Assembly: GCA_903894295.1 (NCBI GenBank)
Contig: CAITPI010000054.1
Location: 1-64,000, forward strand
From: an uncultured Acidimicrobiaceae bacterium
Lineage (GTDB): Bacteria > Actinomycetota > Acidimicrobiia > Acidimicrobiales > RAAP-2
Direction: 5' to 3'
Length of the DNA: 64,000 nucleotides
The first letter of the stretch is position 1, and the number at the start of each line of letters is the position of its first letter. The translations under genes were made by a program, and so were the position numbers. This document shows, in pieces, positions 19,352 to 26,893 of the stretch. Below the pieces are notes generated by a model, which was given only the letters and a program-made list of their open reading frames with translations, ran no database searches and was not told where the DNA came from.

Positions 19352-19768
19352 CTACTTCTTGGACTCCCAGAACATGGTGTCGATGTCGGCGATCTCGGCC
19401 AGCAGGCGGTCCGCCACGGCGACATCGCCGGTCTTCTTGCACTCGCCGGCCGTCTTGGTGGCCTTCCAGAACTTGTCGTGCAGGTCGGGGAAACGCTCGA
19501 GGTGCTCGGGCTTGAAGTAGTCGGTCCACAGCACCCAGAGGTGGTGCTTGACCAACTCGCAGCGCTCTTCCTTGATGATGGCCGCCCGGGTCAGGAACGA
19601 CGGATCCTCGGACGCATTGGCCTTTTCCATGGTGGCCTTGACGGACTCGGCCTCGATGCGGGCCTGAGCCGGGTCGTAGACGCCACAGGGAAGGTCGCAG
19701 TGGGCGTGCACCGTGGTCGGAGCAGCGATGTGGTCCATCAGGTCGAGAAGGCGGTCAACGATGCGCAT
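19352..19768 (-). CDS. sodN: nickel-containing superoxide dismutase precursor
   Basis: Nickel hook HCDLPCGVY after the 22-aa propeptide MRIVDRLLDLMDHIAAPTTVHA; KHHLWVLWTDYFKPEHLERFPDLHDKFWKATK. Confidence 0.96.
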   Translation of the reverse strand: MRIVDRLLDLMDHIAAPTTVHAHCDLPCGVYDPAQARIEAESVKATMEKANASEDPSFLTRAAIIKEERCELVKHHLWVLWTDYFKPEHLERFPDLHDKFWKATKTAGECKKTGDVAVADRLLAEIADIDTMFWESKK

Positions 19769-19828
19769 GAATGAACTCCTGGCTTCTGGCCGGGGCCGAC
19801 GGTCCCGGGCGTCTGGTACAAGTGGGGC

Positions 19829-20308
19829 GTGACACCCGACCCTCTCACTGTATCCAGCCACGGAAGCAGGCGTGACCGGAGCAGGGGGAGGAGTGTCGTC
19901 GTCAGCGTGGCGGCCGTTCTGGCCGCTCTCCTCGTTTGGTTGCGGCGGGGCCACCCGCCGGTCCGTCGGGTCGAGGTTCACGGCGTCTCGATGGCCCCGA
20001 CGCTGTTGCCCGGTGATCGTCTTCTGGTGTGTCGCTGGCCGGTCCGCATCGGGGATCTGGTTGCCGTGTCCGATCCGCGCGCACCGGCCCGGGTGCTGGT
20101 CAAGCGCATCGCAGACCGGGATGAACGGGGTTTTTGGCTGCTCGGGGATGCACCGGACGAGAGTACGGACAGTCGCACGTTCGGATGGGTGGAGCCGGGC
20201 CAGGTACTGGGAAAGGTGGTCTATCGCTATGGACCGGCGCACCGCTCCGGGTCCCTGGTGGGAACCCGGGCGCCAACGCCCGGGGTGGGCGAGTACGATT
20301 CCCGGTGA
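19829..20308 (+). CDS. sodX: Ni-SOD maturation protease, S24/S26 signal-peptidase-like
   Basis: VEVHGVSMAPTLLPGDRLLVCRW (Ser), RVLVKRIADRD (Lys), GDAPDESTDSRTFGWV; divergent neighbour of sodN. Confidence 0.9.
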   Translation: MTPDPLTVSSHGSRRDRSRGRSVVVSVAAVLAALLVWLRRGHPPVRRVEVHGVSMAPTLLPGDRLLVCRWPVRIGDLVAVSDPRAPARVLVKRIADRDERGFWLLGDAPDESTDSRTFGWVEPGQVLGKVVYRYGPAHRSGSLVGTRAPTPGVGEYDSR

Positions 20309-20847
20309 TGGAAAGCCACAAGGAAGACCTCGCCCGAATTCTGGTTCCTACGTATCTCGACGGGATCGATGACCTGCCACTTGACGAGATCCGCGCCAAG
20401 CGCAGCGAGTGTCAGCAGATCGAGGTGGCGCTGTCGTACCTGCGCCGGTTGATACAGGGCCGACTCGACATCGTCTTTGCCTACGTCGCCCAGGCCGAGA
20501 ATGGCGAGACGCTTGAACTGGCGAACGTTGTGGACGACCTGCCGGGCATCCTCACCGCCGGTACCGGCTCCCGCGGGGCTGGCCGGCTCCCCCTGCTGCT
20601 GGCGCCGGACACCGAGGACTACCATCTCACCAGCGAACTCGACGCCATTCTCGGAGCCGACGAGATTGTCTCTCTGCCCGGCCGCGACCTGGCGGAGCTG
20701 CAGGATCTGGCGACCCGGTTGAGTGTCCTTGAAAAGCAGGTGTCGGCCGAGCGCCGTGGTCTGCACGAGCGGATCGATACCCTTCAGGCCGAGTTGGTGG
20801 ACCGTTACAAGTCCGGGCGGGCGTCGGTGGACGGCCTGCTGGCATGA
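20308..20847 (+). CDS. rsiG: RsiG-like anti-sigma factor (c-di-GMP-binding coiled-coil type)
   Basis: EVALSYLRRLIQGRLD fits E(X3)S(X2)R(X3)Q(X3)D exactly (nt 20422-20469); EKQVSAERRGLHERID fits with Q->H (nt 20731-20778). Confidence 0.75.
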   Translation: MESHKEDLARILVPTYLDGIDDLPLDEIRAKRSECQQIEVALSYLRRLIQGRLDIVFAYVAQAENGETLELANVVDDLPGILTAGTGSRGAGRLPLLLAPDTEDYHLTSELDAILGADEIVSLPGRDLAELQDLATRLSVLEKQVSAERRGLHERIDTLQAELVDRYKSGRASVDGLLA

Positions 20848-21266
20848 CGCCGTCGACGAGAAGTGACGGCCCGGGCCTCGGAGAGTTGCCGGAACGTCTG
20901 AACGACCTCGGCACCTTCATCCGGGAACAGCGGGCCTCGGCCCGCCTGTCCCTCCGGCGGCTGTCGGAACTGGCGGGCATCTCGAATCCGTACCTGAGCC
21001 AGATCGAACGGGGACTTCGGCGCCCGTCGGCCGAGATCCTGCAACAGATTGCCAAGGCCCTTCGCATCTCGGCCGAGACCCTCTACGTGCAGGCGGGCAT
21101 TCTGGACCGGCCGGACGGTGACACCGACCTGACCCGGCACATCTTCGCCGATGCCCACCTGACCGAGGAGCAGCGTCAGGCCCTGATCAGGATCTATCTG
21201 TCGTTCCGGAACGAGAACGAGAACGAGGCCGCCCAGGGCGTGCGGGTGTCGGGCGCGGAGGTCTGA
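20844..21266 (+). CDS. XRE-family HTH transcriptional regulator
   Basis: LGTFIREQRASARLSLRRLSELAGISNPYLSQIERGLRRPSAEILQQIAKALRISAETLYVQAGIL; ATG overlaps the upstream stop. Confidence 0.9.
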   Translation: MTPSTRSDGPGLGELPERLNDLGTFIREQRASARLSLRRLSELAGISNPYLSQIERGLRRPSAEILQQIAKALRISAETLYVQAGILDRPDGDTDLTRHIFADAHLTEEQRQALIRIYLSFRNENENEAAQGVRVSGAEV

Positions 21267-21337
21267 CCTTTTCCGTTCCGCCGTCGGGTTGCCCACCGGC
21301 TTCGGAACACGACCTTGGCCGTTAGGATCGAAACCGC

Positions 21338-22591
21338 ATGCAGCGCCTGGCCGTCCTCTCGTTTCATACCTCGCCGCTGGCCCAGCCCGGCACCGGCGAC
21401 GGCGGCGGGATGAACGTCTACGTCCGGGAACTGTCGTCCGCGCTGGCCCGGGCCGGAGTCACCTGCGACGTCTTCACCCGGGCGTGGTCGGACGACCTTC
21501 CCGGGTTCATCGACATCGAGCCGGGCTTTCGGGTGCACCACATCCCGGCCGGCCCGTTGGCGCCCGTCGACAAGGAGGAACTGCCCGGACTGGTCGGCGC
21601 CTTCACCGACGGAGTGCTTGCAGCCATGGAGAAGGTGCAGGCCTCGGAGGGAACGAACTACGAGGCGGTGCACGCCAACTACTGGCTGAGTGGGGTCGCC
21701 GGCCATTACCTGAAACACGAGTTGAACCTGCCGTTGGTGTCGACGTTCCACACCCTTGACCGGGTGAAGGCCGAATCGGGCCTGAGTGAACAGGAGACGT
21801 TGGCCTCGTACCGGCGGGCCGAGGAAGAGGCGGCGGTGATCCGGTGTTCGGACACGGTACTGGCGTCCTGCTCGGTTGAAGCGAGTCAGATCGTCGAGCT
21901 CTACGGCGCCGACCCCAGCCGGTTGCGCATCGTGGCTCCCGGCGTGGACCATGCCTTCTTCGGCCCGGGTGACCGATCCCAGGCCCGACGCGCCATCGGC
22001 CTGGCCGAAGGCGGACCACTGCTGCTGTTCGTCGGCCGGTTGCAGCCCCTCAAGGGGGCGACGGTGGCCGTCCGGGCCCTGGCTGAGGTCCGACAGCGGC
22101 ATCGAGATGCCCAGTTGGTGATGGTGGGTGGTCCGAGTGGACCCCAGGGCGAAGACGAGGTCTTCCGGATCGCCGAACTCGTCAGAGAACTCGGTCTCGC
22201 GTCGGCGGTGACCCAGGTGCCGCCGCGTCCCCATGAGCTGCTGTCTTCCTACTACCGGGCCGCCGATGTGGTGCTGGTGCCCAGCCGCTCGGAGTCGTTC
22301 GGACTGGTTGCCCTCGAGGCTGCCGCCTGTGGCACGCCGGTCGTGGCCAACGACGTGGGCGGCCTGCAGAGTCTGGTCGATCCCGGCCGGACGGGATTTC
22401 TGGTGGACGGTCAGGATCCCGGCCAGTTCGCCCGGCGGGTGCACGAGATCCTCGACGATCCGTTGTTGGCCGGCCAACTGGGTTCCGGGTCGGTCCTGCG
22501 GGCCCGGCGCTACACCTGGTCGCACGCGGCCGAGTTGCTGTTGGAAATCTACGCCGACCTCACGGCCGGGCGATTGGTGGAGTGCTCATGA
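21338..22591 (+). CDS. mshA: D-inositol-3-phosphate glycosyltransferase (mycothiol biosynthesis)
   Basis: GDGGGMNVYVRELSSALARAGVTCDVFTR, HANYWLSGVAGHYLKHELNLPLVSTFHTLDRVKAE, SRSESFGLVALEAAACGTPVVANDVGGL. Confidence 0.93.
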   Translation: MQRLAVLSFHTSPLAQPGTGDGGGMNVYVRELSSALARAGVTCDVFTRAWSDDLPGFIDIEPGFRVHHIPAGPLAPVDKEELPGLVGAFTDGVLAAMEKVQASEGTNYEAVHANYWLSGVAGHYLKHELNLPLVSTFHTLDRVKAESGLSEQETLASYRRAEEEAAVIRCSDTVLASCSVEASQIVELYGADPSRLRIVAPGVDHAFFGPGDRSQARRAIGLAEGGPLLLFVGRLQPLKGATVAVRALAEVRQRHRDAQLVMVGGPSGPQGEDEVFRIAELVRELGLASAVTQVPPRPHELLSSYYRAADVVLVPSRSESFGLVALEAAACGTPVVANDVGGLQSLVDPGRTGFLVDGQDPGQFARRVHEILDDPLLAGQLGSGSVLRARRYTWSHAAELLLEIYADLTAGRLVECS

Positions 22592-23100
22592 GCGATGAAT
22601 GGTCGGGCCTGCTGGGTGATGACGAGCGGGAGACGGTCTGCTCGGTGATCGACGCCTGGGCGGCTAGGGAGTTCGCCGCCGGTGGCGCACTGGTCGCGGT
22701 GGACCGTCAGCCTGGCGGTGACCCGGTGACCGGGGCGCCCCGCTGGTACCTGCGGATGAAAGGGGAGGAGAAGGAGTTCGTCACGGTGTGGCTGACGTTG
22801 CGTCAACGTACGCTCCATCACGAGACCCAGTTCATGCCGTTCCCCGAGACCAACATCGAAGCCACCTGGCAGTACCTGATGAAGAAGAACGCCGATCTCA
22901 TGGGGATGTCCTTCGCACTCGGCCCGGAAGATGCGGTCTACCTGATCGGACGGGTACCGGTCGGCCGGATCAGCGAGGACGAACTGGACCGCATCATGGG
23001 TGCATCGCTGGCGTACACCGACGAGTGCTTTCCCACCGCCATGCAACTGGGCTACGAGGGCCGCTATCGGCGGCGAACGGCTGCCGAGCGAGCCTCGTGA
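22588..23100 (+). CDS. YbjN-domain protein
   Basis: Downstream of mshA; WYLRMKGEEKEFVTVWLTLRQRTLHHETQFMPFPE...WQYLMKKNADLMGMSFALGPEDAVYLIGRVP. Confidence 0.8.
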   Translation: MSDEWSGLLGDDERETVCSVIDAWAAREFAAGGALVAVDRQPGGDPVTGAPRWYLRMKGEEKEFVTVWLTLRQRTLHHETQFMPFPETNIEATWQYLMKKNADLMGMSFALGPEDAVYLIGRVPVGRISEDELDRIMGASLAYTDECFPTAMQLGYEGRYRRRTAAERAS

Positions 23101-23130
23101 AACCCGGGACCCGCTGGTAGCGTTTTCCCT

Positions 23131-23922
23131 GTGCGTCCCAAACTGTTGATGGTCGGCGGAGGAAAGATGGGCACCGCCCTGCTCGGTGGCCTCGTTTCGG
23201 CCGGCTGGGCGCCGGTGGGCGAACTCGCGGTCTGTGATCCCGATTCCGGGGCGCGGGAGCGGTTGCTGGCGGAGTTCCCGGGCGTGACGGTGACCGATCT
23301 TCCGGTCGAGGCCGAGGGTGTCGTTCTGGCCGTGAAGCCGGATGTGGCCGAGAGCGTCCTGCGTGCCCTGGCCGCAGTGGGCAACCGTCGGGTGCTCTCG
23401 ATCGTGGCCGGACTGGCCACCGCCCGGTTGGAGGCGGCCATGGAACCGGGCGCAGTGGTGGTCCGGGCGATGCCCAACACTCCGGCCCTGATCGGGGCAG
23501 GCGTGTCCGGGCTGTCTGGTGGTTCGGCCGCCACTTCGGCCGATCTGGCCTGGGCCGAGGAGATCCTCGGCCAGGTCGGTTCGGTGATCCGGCTGCCGGA
23601 GCGCTATCTGGACGCCCTGACCGCCGTATCCGGCTCGGGACCGGCGTACGTCTTCTTCATGGCCGAAGCGCTGATCGAAGGTGGGGTCCATGCCGGCCTG
23701 CCCCGGGACGTCAGCCGGAAACTGGTACTCGAGACGATCCTTGGGGCCGCCCGGATGATGACCGAAACCGGTGACGATCCGGCCCTGCTGCGCGAAGCCG
23801 TGACCTCGCCGGGAGGCACAACGGCGGCGGCGCTGCGCACCCTCGAGTTCAAGGCGGTGCGGTCGGCCTATCTGGAAGCGGTGATGGCGGCCACCGAACG
23901 CTCGCGTCAACTGGGCCGGTGA
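23131..23922 (+). CDS. proC: pyrroline-5-carboxylate reductase
   Basis: LLMVGGGKMGTALLGGLVSAGW..., VRAMPNTPALIGAGVSGLSGG, TAVSGSGPAYVFFMAEALIEGGV. Confidence 0.95.
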   Translation: MRPKLLMVGGGKMGTALLGGLVSAGWAPVGELAVCDPDSGARERLLAEFPGVTVTDLPVEAEGVVLAVKPDVAESVLRALAAVGNRRVLSIVAGLATARLEAAMEPGAVVVRAMPNTPALIGAGVSGLSGGSAATSADLAWAEEILGQVGSVIRLPERYLDALTAVSGSGPAYVFFMAEALIEGGVHAGLPRDVSRKLVLETILGAARMMTETGDDPALLREAVTSPGGTTAAALRTLEFKAVRSAYLEAVMAATERSRQLGR

Positions 23923-24620
23923 GTCGGTTGGGAGGATCCCGGGCGAACTCGTGGTTCGCCGCCGGCCTCGTCGCACTGGTGGCGTTGACCGTCACCTCGT
24001 GCGCATCGGGCAACGCGCACCACCACCTGCCGACCACGACCCTCACGTATCCGACCACCCCCTCGGGCCCGACGACCACGACGTCACCTCCGCCGGTGCT
24101 CCGGTCGGTTCTCGAACCACGCCTTCTGACGCTGTCGTCTTTCCCTGCCGGCTGGACCAGCGATTCGGCCGCCGGGGCCGCCGACACGACCGGCTCGCCG
24201 GCCTGCGTTCAGGATCCCGTGCTGATGAAGGGCTCGCTGGCCAGTTTGTCGTCGGTCTTTACCGGTCCCACCCCACCCACCCCGCCGGATGCGGCGGTGC
24301 AGGCCGTAGGACTGTTCGCCAACAACGCCCAGGCGGTCGCCTCGGTCAAGTTCGAACATCAGGTCACCTACACCTGTGATGCCAACCTCACCGGTGTCTC
24401 CATGGCCATCGTTGCGGTACCCAGTCCGACCCAGCAACGCGATGGCTATGCCCGGCAACTGGTCTTCACCAAGGGGACGGGCCGGGCCATTGTCGACGAG
24501 TTCTATGCCATCAACGGACGCCTGGCCACCGCGCTGGTGTGGAAGACCTCGTCGACCGACACCACGGCGTTCACCTCGGCGATGAACGCCGCCTACAGCC
24601 TGCTGGGCTCAGCCGGCTGA
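23919..24620 (+). CDS. secreted lipoprotein-like protein with 'L.LS..P.GW' domain
   Basis: Signal peptide and lipobox VALTVTSCASG; RLLTLSSFPAGWTSDSAAG. Confidence 0.6.
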   Translation: MSRLGGSRANSWFAAGLVALVALTVTSCASGNAHHHLPTTTLTYPTTPSGPTTTTSPPPVLRSVLEPRLLTLSSFPAGWTSDSAAGAADTTGSPACVQDPVLMKGSLASLSSVFTGPTPPTPPDAAVQAVGLFANNAQAVASVKFEHQVTYTCDANLTGVSMAIVAVPSPTQQRDGYARQLVFTKGTGRAIVDEFYAINGRLATALVWKTSSTDTTAFTSAMNAAYSLLGSAG

Positions 24621-24698
24621 CCTGTCCGGGATCCTCCCCGATGGCGTCACCGGCGGTTTTGCCCGGCATCGAGGCGCCAATGCTCCTACGATTCACGC

Positions 24699-25472
24699 AT
24701 GGCGCCCGGAGAAACCGATGCTTCCGGCCTGACGGCGGACGTTGATGTGACCGAAGAAGGAGTGCGGGAACAGGGCGTCTCTCCCCGTCGGATTCCCCAG
24801 GCGACGGTGGTGCGACTGCCGACCTACCGGCGCCTGCTGGAAGAGTTCGGACGCTCCGGTCTCTCCACGATCTCCTCGGAGATGCTGGCCGCCGCCGCCC
24901 ACATGAATGCCGCCAAGGTGCGCAAGGACCTCTCGCTTCTCGGATCGTTCGGCACCCGGGGCTCGGGTTATGACCGCGATTTCCTGATCGGCCAGATCGA
25001 CCTGGCACTCGGTCTGGACCGCGTCTGGCCGGTGGTCATCGTGGGGATGGGAAATCTCGGCCGGGCCCTGGCCAACTCGACCCGGTTCGCCGGGCAGAAC
25101 TTCGAAGTCGTCGCCATGCTGGACGCGGACCCGGACCTGGTCGGCCAGGAAGTGGCCAACGGGGTGATCCGGCCGTTCGGGGAGCTTGGCGCCATAGCCT
25201 CCAGTCGGCCGCTTGCCATCGGCGTCGTCACCACCCCGGCCGACGTCGCCCAGGATGTGGCCGACCAGTTGGTGGCGGCCGGCGTCCACAGCCTGCTGGT
25301 GTTCGCTCCCCGGGTGATCGACGTCCCCCGCGGCGTCATGGTGCGCTACGTGGACCTCGGTATTGAACTCCAGGTGATGAGTTTCTACCAGTCCCGCCGG
25401 GAACGTCAGGGAGAGGATCACGACATGGCGGTCCTCGGATCGGTCGGCCTCGCCGGACCCCCCGGGGACTGA
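24699..25472 (+). CDS. rex: redox-sensing transcriptional repressor Rex
   Basis: IPQATVVRLPTYRRLLEEF...AAAHMNAAKVRKDLSLLGSFGTRGSGYDRDFLI; Rossmann VIVGMGNLGRALAN. Confidence 0.96.
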   Translation: MAPGETDASGLTADVDVTEEGVREQGVSPRRIPQATVVRLPTYRRLLEEFGRSGLSTISSEMLAAAAHMNAAKVRKDLSLLGSFGTRGSGYDRDFLIGQIDLALGLDRVWPVVIVGMGNLGRALANSTRFAGQNFEVVAMLDADPDLVGQEVANGVIRPFGELGAIASSRPLAIGVVTTPADVAQDVADQLVAAGVHSLLVFAPRVIDVPRGVMVRYVDLGIELQVMSFYQSRRERQGEDHDMAVLGSVGLAGPPGD

Positions 25473-25501
25473 CGTTTGGCGGCCACCGGGGGGCAACTGC
25501 C

Positions 25502-25609
25502 TAGAATGGGGGGCGCCGTCAGAGTGGGAACGAGTGGAGGGACCACTTGTCGCAGCGGTAAAGGACGACCGGTCGCCGTGGGAGAAGAAACCCAGATGCA
25601 GGTGATGGC
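25502..25609 (+). promoter_or_regulatory. candidate promoter and about 100-nt leader of hemA
   Basis: -10-like TAGAAT (25502-25507) then an uncoded leader with AGTGG-aggga-CCACT and GGG-agaagaaa-CCC hairpins. Confidence 0.4.
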
Positions 25610-26893
25610 GTGTCGGTAATCGTCGTGGGCCTCGAGCAACGCCAGGCCCCATTGGACCTGTTGGAGCAGGTGGCCATCTCCGAGGACGACCTGCCCAAGG
25701 CGCTTTCCCGTTTGCAGGATCTGGGCAACATCTCCGAGGCCGTTGTGCTGTCGACCTGCCTGCGGACGGAGATCTACGCCGTGGTCGAACGGTTCCACGA
25801 GGGAGTGGCCGAGCTTCAGGAGTTCCTCGCCTCTCTGGGTGGCCGCCCGGGCGAGAGTCTGACCGACCACCTCTCGATCCGCTTTGACGACGAAGTGACC
25901 GCCCACCTGTTCTCGGTAGCCGCCGGTCTGGACTCGGCGGTCCTCGGCGAGAGTGAGGTACTTGGTCAGGTCCGTCGTTCCTGGGAGCGGGCCCAGGCGG
26001 AGGACGCCTCCGGTCCGGTGCTCGGATCCCTGTTCCGCCATGCCGTGGAAGCCGGCAAGCGCGTGCGGTCGGAAACCGCGATCGCCCGGGGCATCACCTC
26101 GCTCTCCCATGGCGCCGTGGCCATAGCCGCCGGTCGTCGACCCGGCGGTCTGCAGGGTGCCCGGGTTCTGGTGGTGGGCGCCGGAGAGATGGGCGAGGGC
26201 GTCACCCAGGCCCTGGCCGACCATGACGTGGCGTCCATCGCGGTGGCCAACCGCACCAGTGACCGAAGGGATGCCGTCATCTCGAACTGGCCGGAAGGCC
26301 GGCCGGTGCAGCCCCGGGGAACCGATCTGGAAGGACTGGTGGAGGAGTTGGGTGAGGCTGACGTGGTGTTCACCACCGTCGCCACGACCCACCCGATCAT
26401 CGACCGGGAGATGGTCGAGGTTGCCGTGGCCGGCCGGGAAGGTTCGGCCCCACTGCTCATTGTCGACCTCGGGGTACCGCGCAACGTGGCGCCGGCCGCC
26501 GCCGCCCTGGCCACGGTCGTGCTGCTCGACATGGAAGTACTGCGTTCGGCGGTCGAAGATGCCCTCTCCGGCCGTCAGGAGCAGGCCGTGTTGGCGGCGG
26601 AGATCGTTGCGGAAGAAGTTGAACGGCACCGGGTCGATGTGCGGGCCCGGAGCGCTGCGCCGACCATCGCCGCCCTTCGTCGTCAGGTCGACGAGTTGCG
26701 GTCGGCCGAGCTCGAGCGGCTCCGGGCGAAGAACGGGGATCTGACCGACCAGCAGTGGGAGCAGATCGACGTCATGTCCCGGGCGCTGGCCAACAAACTT
26801 CTGCACGGTCCGACGGTGGCCCTGAAGGAAGCGGCCGGCACACCCCGTGGCGAGCGGATGACCGAGGCGCTGCGCGCCTTGTTCGACCTCTAG
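25610..26893 (+). CDS. hemA: glutamyl-tRNA reductase
   Basis: AVVLSTCLRTEIYAVV, GESEVLGQVRRSWERAQAE, VVGAGEMGEGVTQAL. Confidence 0.95.
   Translation: MSVIVVGLEQRQAPLDLLEQVAISEDDLPKALSRLQDLGNISEAVVLSTCLRTEIYAVVERFHEGVAELQEFLASLGGRPGESLTDHLSIRFDDEVTAHLFSVAAGLDSAVLGESEVLGQVRRSWERAQAEDASGPVLGSLFRHAVEAGKRVRSETAIARGITSLSHGAVAIAAGRRPGGLQGARVLVVGAGEMGEGVTQALADHDVASIAVANRTSDRRDAVISNWPEGRPVQPRGTDLEGLVEELGEADVVFTTVATTHPIIDREMVEVAVAGREGSAPLLIVDLGVPRNVAPAAAALATVVLLDMEVLRSAVEDALSGRQEQAVLAAEIVAEEVERHRVDVRARSAAPTIAALRRQVDELRSAELERLRAKNGDLTDQQWEQIDVMSRALANKLLHGPTVALKEAAGTPRGERMTEALRALFDL

Follow-up and report, generated by a model that had tools for sequence, protein, structure and literature searches.

Genes, junctions and candidate promoters

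The window, meaning the whole stretch of 64,000 nucleotides that was analysed (C54:1-64000), harbors a divergent nickel superoxide dismutase (Ni-SOD) module, sodN and sodX, followed on the sodX side by rsiG, an XRE-family regulator gene (xre), an mshA-like gene and a ybjN-family gene (Table 1). The identities that a sequence-only reading had given to sodN, sodX, rsiG and xre are backed by profile searches. SodN scores 158.7 bits against TIGR02753 (cut-off 90) and 154.6 bits against PF09055, and carries the Ni-hook HCDLPCGVY at residues 23-31, after a 22-residue leader, which fits the nickel-SOD pattern HCxxPCGxY. SodX lies above the curated cut-off of TIGR02754 (72.6 bits against 63.25), has a PF10502 score of 51.7 bits and SMAPTL and VKRI boxes, and is encoded 60 nt from sodN. 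The arrangement resembles known Ni-SOD/SodX maturation pairs in that a sodN with the hook motif adjoins a signal-peptidase-like sodX, and differs from them in that sodX is the head of an rsiG-xre-mshA row.

Table 1. Coordinates of genes and candidate elements at the sodN-rsiG locus, numbered from the first letter of the window
Feature	Position	Strand	Assignment and evidence
sodN	19352..19768	-	Ni-superoxide dismutase precursor; TIGR02753, PF09055, hook motif
sodN-sodX divergent intergenic region	19769..19828		60 nt; sequence, alignment with relatives
Conserved block A, CTGGTACAAG	19813..19822	+	Candidate sodX -10 TACAAG, 19817-19822; alignment with relatives
sodX	19829..20308	+	Ni-SOD maturation protease, S26-type signal-peptidase family; TIGR02754, PF10502
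Conserved block B, plus strand CACTGTATCCAG	19846..19857	-	Candidate sodN -10 TACAGT; alignment with relatives
rsiG	20308..20847	+	Predicted twin-motif anti-sigma for WhiG; PF22802, 6pfj_T, motifs, fold match 6pfv_T
XRE-family regulator (HTH_3), 140 aa	20844..21266	+	PF01381; after rsiG phylum-wide
mshA-like glycosyltransferase (mycothiol step 1)	21338..22591	+	TIGR03449, synteny
YbjN-family protein	22582..23100	+	Overlaps mshA; PF10722 26 bits, synteny

The XRE protein gives a generic HTH_3 match (PF01381, 51.9 bits), and it has no cysteine and no methionine other than at its start. BldD and Rv0474 are XRE regulators whose ligands are c-di-GMP and copper, respectively. A BldD-like or Rv0474-like character of the protein is at most tentative; BldD is absent among its 23 PDB matches at E≤0.01. 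MshA scores 420.5 bits against TIGR03449, a strong match that is nonetheless under the cut-off of 462.5. Mycothiol synthesis in the source genome is probable rather than established, because the best MshC match (G000:C37:16007-17116; L226) reaches 413.9 bits and lies under the family cut-off of 485.1. The mshA and ybjN genes open a same-strand row downstream of xre, mshA-ybjN-proC-orf-rex-hemA (21338-26893), whose order is kept in many Acidimicrobiia.

The gene junctions and the 60-bp gap between sodN and sodX had been read exactly, to the base. The sodX stop (TGA, 20306-20308) has one base in common with the rsiG start (ATG, 20308-20310), giving TGATG at 20306-20310, and the rsiG stop (TGA, 20845-20847) overlaps the xre start (ATG, 20844-20846) by four bases, giving ATGA at 20844-20847. 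Upstream, the minus-strand start of sodN at 19768 and the GTG start of sodX at 19829 diverge. That sodX, rsiG and xre form one transcription unit is likely because both overlaps recur in four related metagenome-assembled genomes (MAGs), and the overlapping stops and starts would couple translation of the three genes. The earlier proposal of probable co-transcription and translational coupling thus stands, on overlaps that are kept in relatives. A weak terminator-like hairpin at the end of xre (21248-21267) counts against a read-through operon. An Rfam search of 19.0-23.2 kb gave no match.

Two conserved blocks flank the sodX start. In six genomes, block A starts 16-18 nt and ends 6-8 nt upstream of the sodX start codon, while block B lies within the 5' end of sodX and contains a TANNNT element reading towards sodN. 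The spacing between the blocks is nearly fixed (33-35 nt in the six genomes), while the distance to sodN varies. At 16-18 nt from the start codon, block A would therefore give a leaderless sodX mRNA, from a candidate promoter that overlaps a divergent one for sodN. Blocks kept in six sequences are the basis of these promoter calls, and the block patterns were defined after inspection of the alignment, so that the shuffle test is illustrative. A standard sigma-70 scan of 19.0-23.2 kb found no promoter, and both the operon and its promoters at sodX-rsiG-xre are putative. Within 19813-19857 the blocks together resemble an imperfect inverted repeat (CTGGTACAAG / CTGTATCCAG), which may be a pair of -10 elements or a common operator of sodN and sodX. 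As repeats elsewhere in the window the blocks were rejected: exact copies occur only at sodN/sodX, and weaker matches are little above chance.

RsiG and its partners

By its sequence, rsiG is a genuine and ordinary gene for a twin-motif, predicted c-di-GMP-dependent anti-sigma factor, as had been proposed. The protein scores 85.8 bits against Pfam PF22802 (cut-off 27), and its best solved relative is Streptomyces venezuelae RsiG (PDB 6pfj_T, E=5.6e-16, residues 22-179). Both E(X)3S(X)2R(X)3[Q/H](X)3D motifs are intact, one on each helix of a predicted antiparallel pair: EVALSYLRRLIQGRLD at residues 39-54 (E39-S43-R46-Q50-D54) and EKQVSAERRGLHERID at residues 142-157 (E142-S146-R149-H153-D157). 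In an alignment of 20 homologues the two motifs are among the most invariant columns: S43, R46, D54, E142, S146 and R149 never vary, and E39, Q50 and D157 hardly vary. An AlphaFold model built from 8 sequences (mean pLDDT 73) has two long helices at 25-64 and 128-168. Its best PDB match is 6pfv_T (TM 0.65/0.70), and at E≤0.001 its matches consist solely of the RsiG chains of 6PFV and 6PFJ. The protein would be expected to bind c-di-GMP and WhiG.

The likeness to the Streptomyces type of RsiG (PMC8325347) extends to the twin motifs, full-length similarity, the predicted two-helix fold, and the WhiG and GGDEF genes in the genome. Unlike the Streptomyces gene, this one is found in an Acidimicrobiia MAG and directly adjoins sodX, xre and mshA, whereas in Streptomyces it lies well away from xre. 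The second motif also has histidine instead of glutamine, a frequent replacement that suits stacking on c-di-GMP (PMC8325347). The single-motif RsiG proteins of Rubrobacter and Thermoleophilia (PDB 7LQ2-7LQ4; PMC8325347) have the c-di-GMP motif and the WhiG partner family in common with the twin-motif form found here, but are short one-motif homodimers. The single-motif-like loci examined have no xre or mshA neighbors, in contrast with the locus in the window, where both adjoin.

The earlier statement that no sigma factor gene lies in the window holds for the Sigma70_r2 domain, of which there are seven in the source genome and none on C54:1-64000. The WhiG-like sigma factor that was to be sought elsewhere in the genome is present on another contig, C48 (G000:C48:13172-13846), within an xerC-whiG-rpsB-tsf locus; with no Sigma70_r2 domain in the window and whiG on C48, the locus is not a sigma/anti-sigma operon. 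This WhiG scores 263.7 bits against TIGR02479 (cut-off 189.6). Among PDB chains, the one that matches it best is S. venezuelae WhiG from 6PFJ (6pfj_A, E=5.7e-90). Frames named by eye as resembling pyrH, frr, cdsA and dxr lie downstream of the whiG locus. The source genome also encodes nine GGDEF domains.

In a survey sample of 198 genomes of the class Acidimicrobiia, RsiG is found in 122, WhiG/FliA (E≤1e-40) in 128, Ni-SOD in 111 and GGDEF in 135. The presence of RsiG and WhiG agrees in 191 of the 198 genomes (119 with both, 72 with neither, 3 with RsiG only and 4 with WhiG only), a tally that leaves out five genomes whose sole sigma match is weaker. A GGDEF gene is present in every one of the 122 RsiG genomes. 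Between RsiG and SodN there is a slight negative association, with both in 58 genomes, RsiG only in 64, SodN only in 53 and neither in 23. The surveyed genomes are akin, so that Fisher p-values overstate independence. Across genomes, rsiG tracks whiG and GGDEF genes, not sodN. In the family to which the window belongs, all 12 other sampled members are without rsiG and without whiG. The only class genomes with RsiG and no WhiG match are G119 and G182, which are incomplete, and G122, which has a listed completeness of 96% and may hold a real orphan RsiG.

Conservation of gene order

A survey of sodX neighborhoods in relatives, proposed earlier with the absence of the linkage in all of them as its refutation, finds rsiG-like and xre genes linked to sodX in several. 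Four loci (L037, L039, L040, L041) have the complete order sodN<>sodX-rsiG-xre-mshA-ybjN-proC, followed by rex and often hemA. The TGATG and ATGA/GTGA overlaps are kept in L038, L039, L040 and L041, whose RsiG proteins are only ~58-61% identical to that of the window. In further relatives order and strand are kept with short gaps, while L047, L048, L049, L050 and L051 have a differing arrangement or an inserted gene; the insertions in L047 and L048 are ~1.2 kb, and orientation is altered in L050, L051 and L068. L050 (G004) and L051 (G006) belong to distant SodN lineages with sodN still near rsiG, and may represent repeated or older linkage.

Among the 58 class genomes having both genes, sodN lies within ~3 kb of rsiG in 11, representing 10 families, and sodX is immediately upstream of rsiG in 6 of these. 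The chance expectation of ~0.1 is a rough estimate for a 6-kb target in ~3 Mb, and the 11 genomes are related, hence not 11 independent events. The signal in a SodN tree is too low for it to prove that the linkage was inherited vertically.

The two parts of the row also occur apart. In the family of the window, 11 genomes without rsiG and whiG keep sodN<>sodX right before xre-mshA or mshA: in L053 and L054 sodX and xre share four bases, and in members without a detected xre sodX precedes mshA. Conversely, rsiG-xre-mshA is common in class genomes and families in which sodN is elsewhere or absent. Beyond Acidimicrobiia, rsiG...xre...mshA...ybjN...proC again occur in this order, with intervening genes and with no sodN or sodX nearby. 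In three genomes of 7-9.5 Mb, probably Streptomyces, rsiG and xre share a strand and are separated by ~14-25 kb; two of these have mshA-ybjN beyond xre, and the third has no mshA within ~50 kb downstream of rsiG. The rsiG-xre-mshA row is a phylum-wide block, mostly without sodN and sodX. A term search of the paper on RsiG evolution (PMC8325347) found genomic context, synteny, neighbors and superoxide unmentioned, and the open-access literature, searched for RsiG with mshA and for c-di-GMP with Ni-SOD and sigma factors, yielded nothing on the linkage seen here.

Explanations for the linkage

The most probable explanation, held with good confidence, is that an old actinobacterial rsiG block abuts a Ni-SOD module, so that the gene order is inherited and RsiG acts as in Streptomyces. 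The block, rsiG-xre-mshA-ybjN(-proC...), would be ancient in actinobacteria and tightly packed in Acidimicrobiia, with the divergent sodN<>sodX module at its upstream end. A single unit, sodX-rsiG-xre and probably on into mshA, would be read from a promoter just upstream of sodX, with translation of SodX, RsiG and the XRE protein coupled through the overlaps of stop and start codons. At high c-di-GMP, two c-di-GMP would bind the paired helices of RsiG, which would keep sigma-WhiG off RNA polymerase; a drop in c-di-GMP would release WhiG. The tie to superoxide defense would be common transcription through an inherited neighborhood.

The sequence-only reading had raised a functional joining of c-di-GMP/sigma signaling to superoxide defense, and this is unsupported because the presence of rsiG varies independently of that of the SOD module, each keeping its own partners. 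In its explicit form, co-transcription with sodX was selected because it ties RsiG dose to a redox- or nickel-dependent SOD promoter, and oxidative stress raises RsiG and restrains WhiG. The overlaps kept in close relatives, the proximity of sodN and rsiG in 10 families, the conserved pair of promoter-like blocks, and the presence of mshA, of an antioxidant thiol pathway, among the next genes and of rex further on all speak for it. It is nonetheless unlikely: rsiG follows whiG and GGDEF genes, not sodN, with which its presence is, if anything, negatively associated; sodN is not nearby at most rsiG loci; and the 11 same-family genomes that lack rsiG retain the sodN/sodX-(xre)-mshA row. It is similarly doubtful that in Acidimicrobiia the sodX promoter sets RsiG dose, and that oxidative or nickel status feeds WhiG-controlled expression through the coupled operon. 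Control in the other direction, with sodN and/or sodX as sigma-WhiG targets and RsiG of the same operon as feedback, is the least probable of the explanations. Physical linkage speaks for it, but the flagellar/WhiG consensus TAAA-N15/16-GCCGATAA has no match within 3 mismatches in 19.0-23.2 kb, match numbers are near chance window-wide, and the genome has 27 matches against 24 for the reversed-pattern control, most of them inside coding-like frames or without an obvious downstream gene. The row is also retained where whiG is absent.

Packing by chance, in a genome that is compact and without common transcription of importance, would suit the varying gaps, insertions (L047, L048) and orientation changes (L050, L051, L068) seen beyond the nearest relatives. 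It is rated very improbable, as identical overlaps are found in relatives whose proteins are ~60% identical, and the gene order is met again phylum-wide. That the genes are neighbors here argues only weakly for a circuit joining superoxide and c-di-GMP. The RsiG-WhiG-c-di-GMP partners occur in a large share of the sampled Acidimicrobiia, with near-perfect co-inheritance and joint absence in the family of the window, and the comparison brings out an rsiG-xre-mshA-ybjN order that recurs across the phylum.
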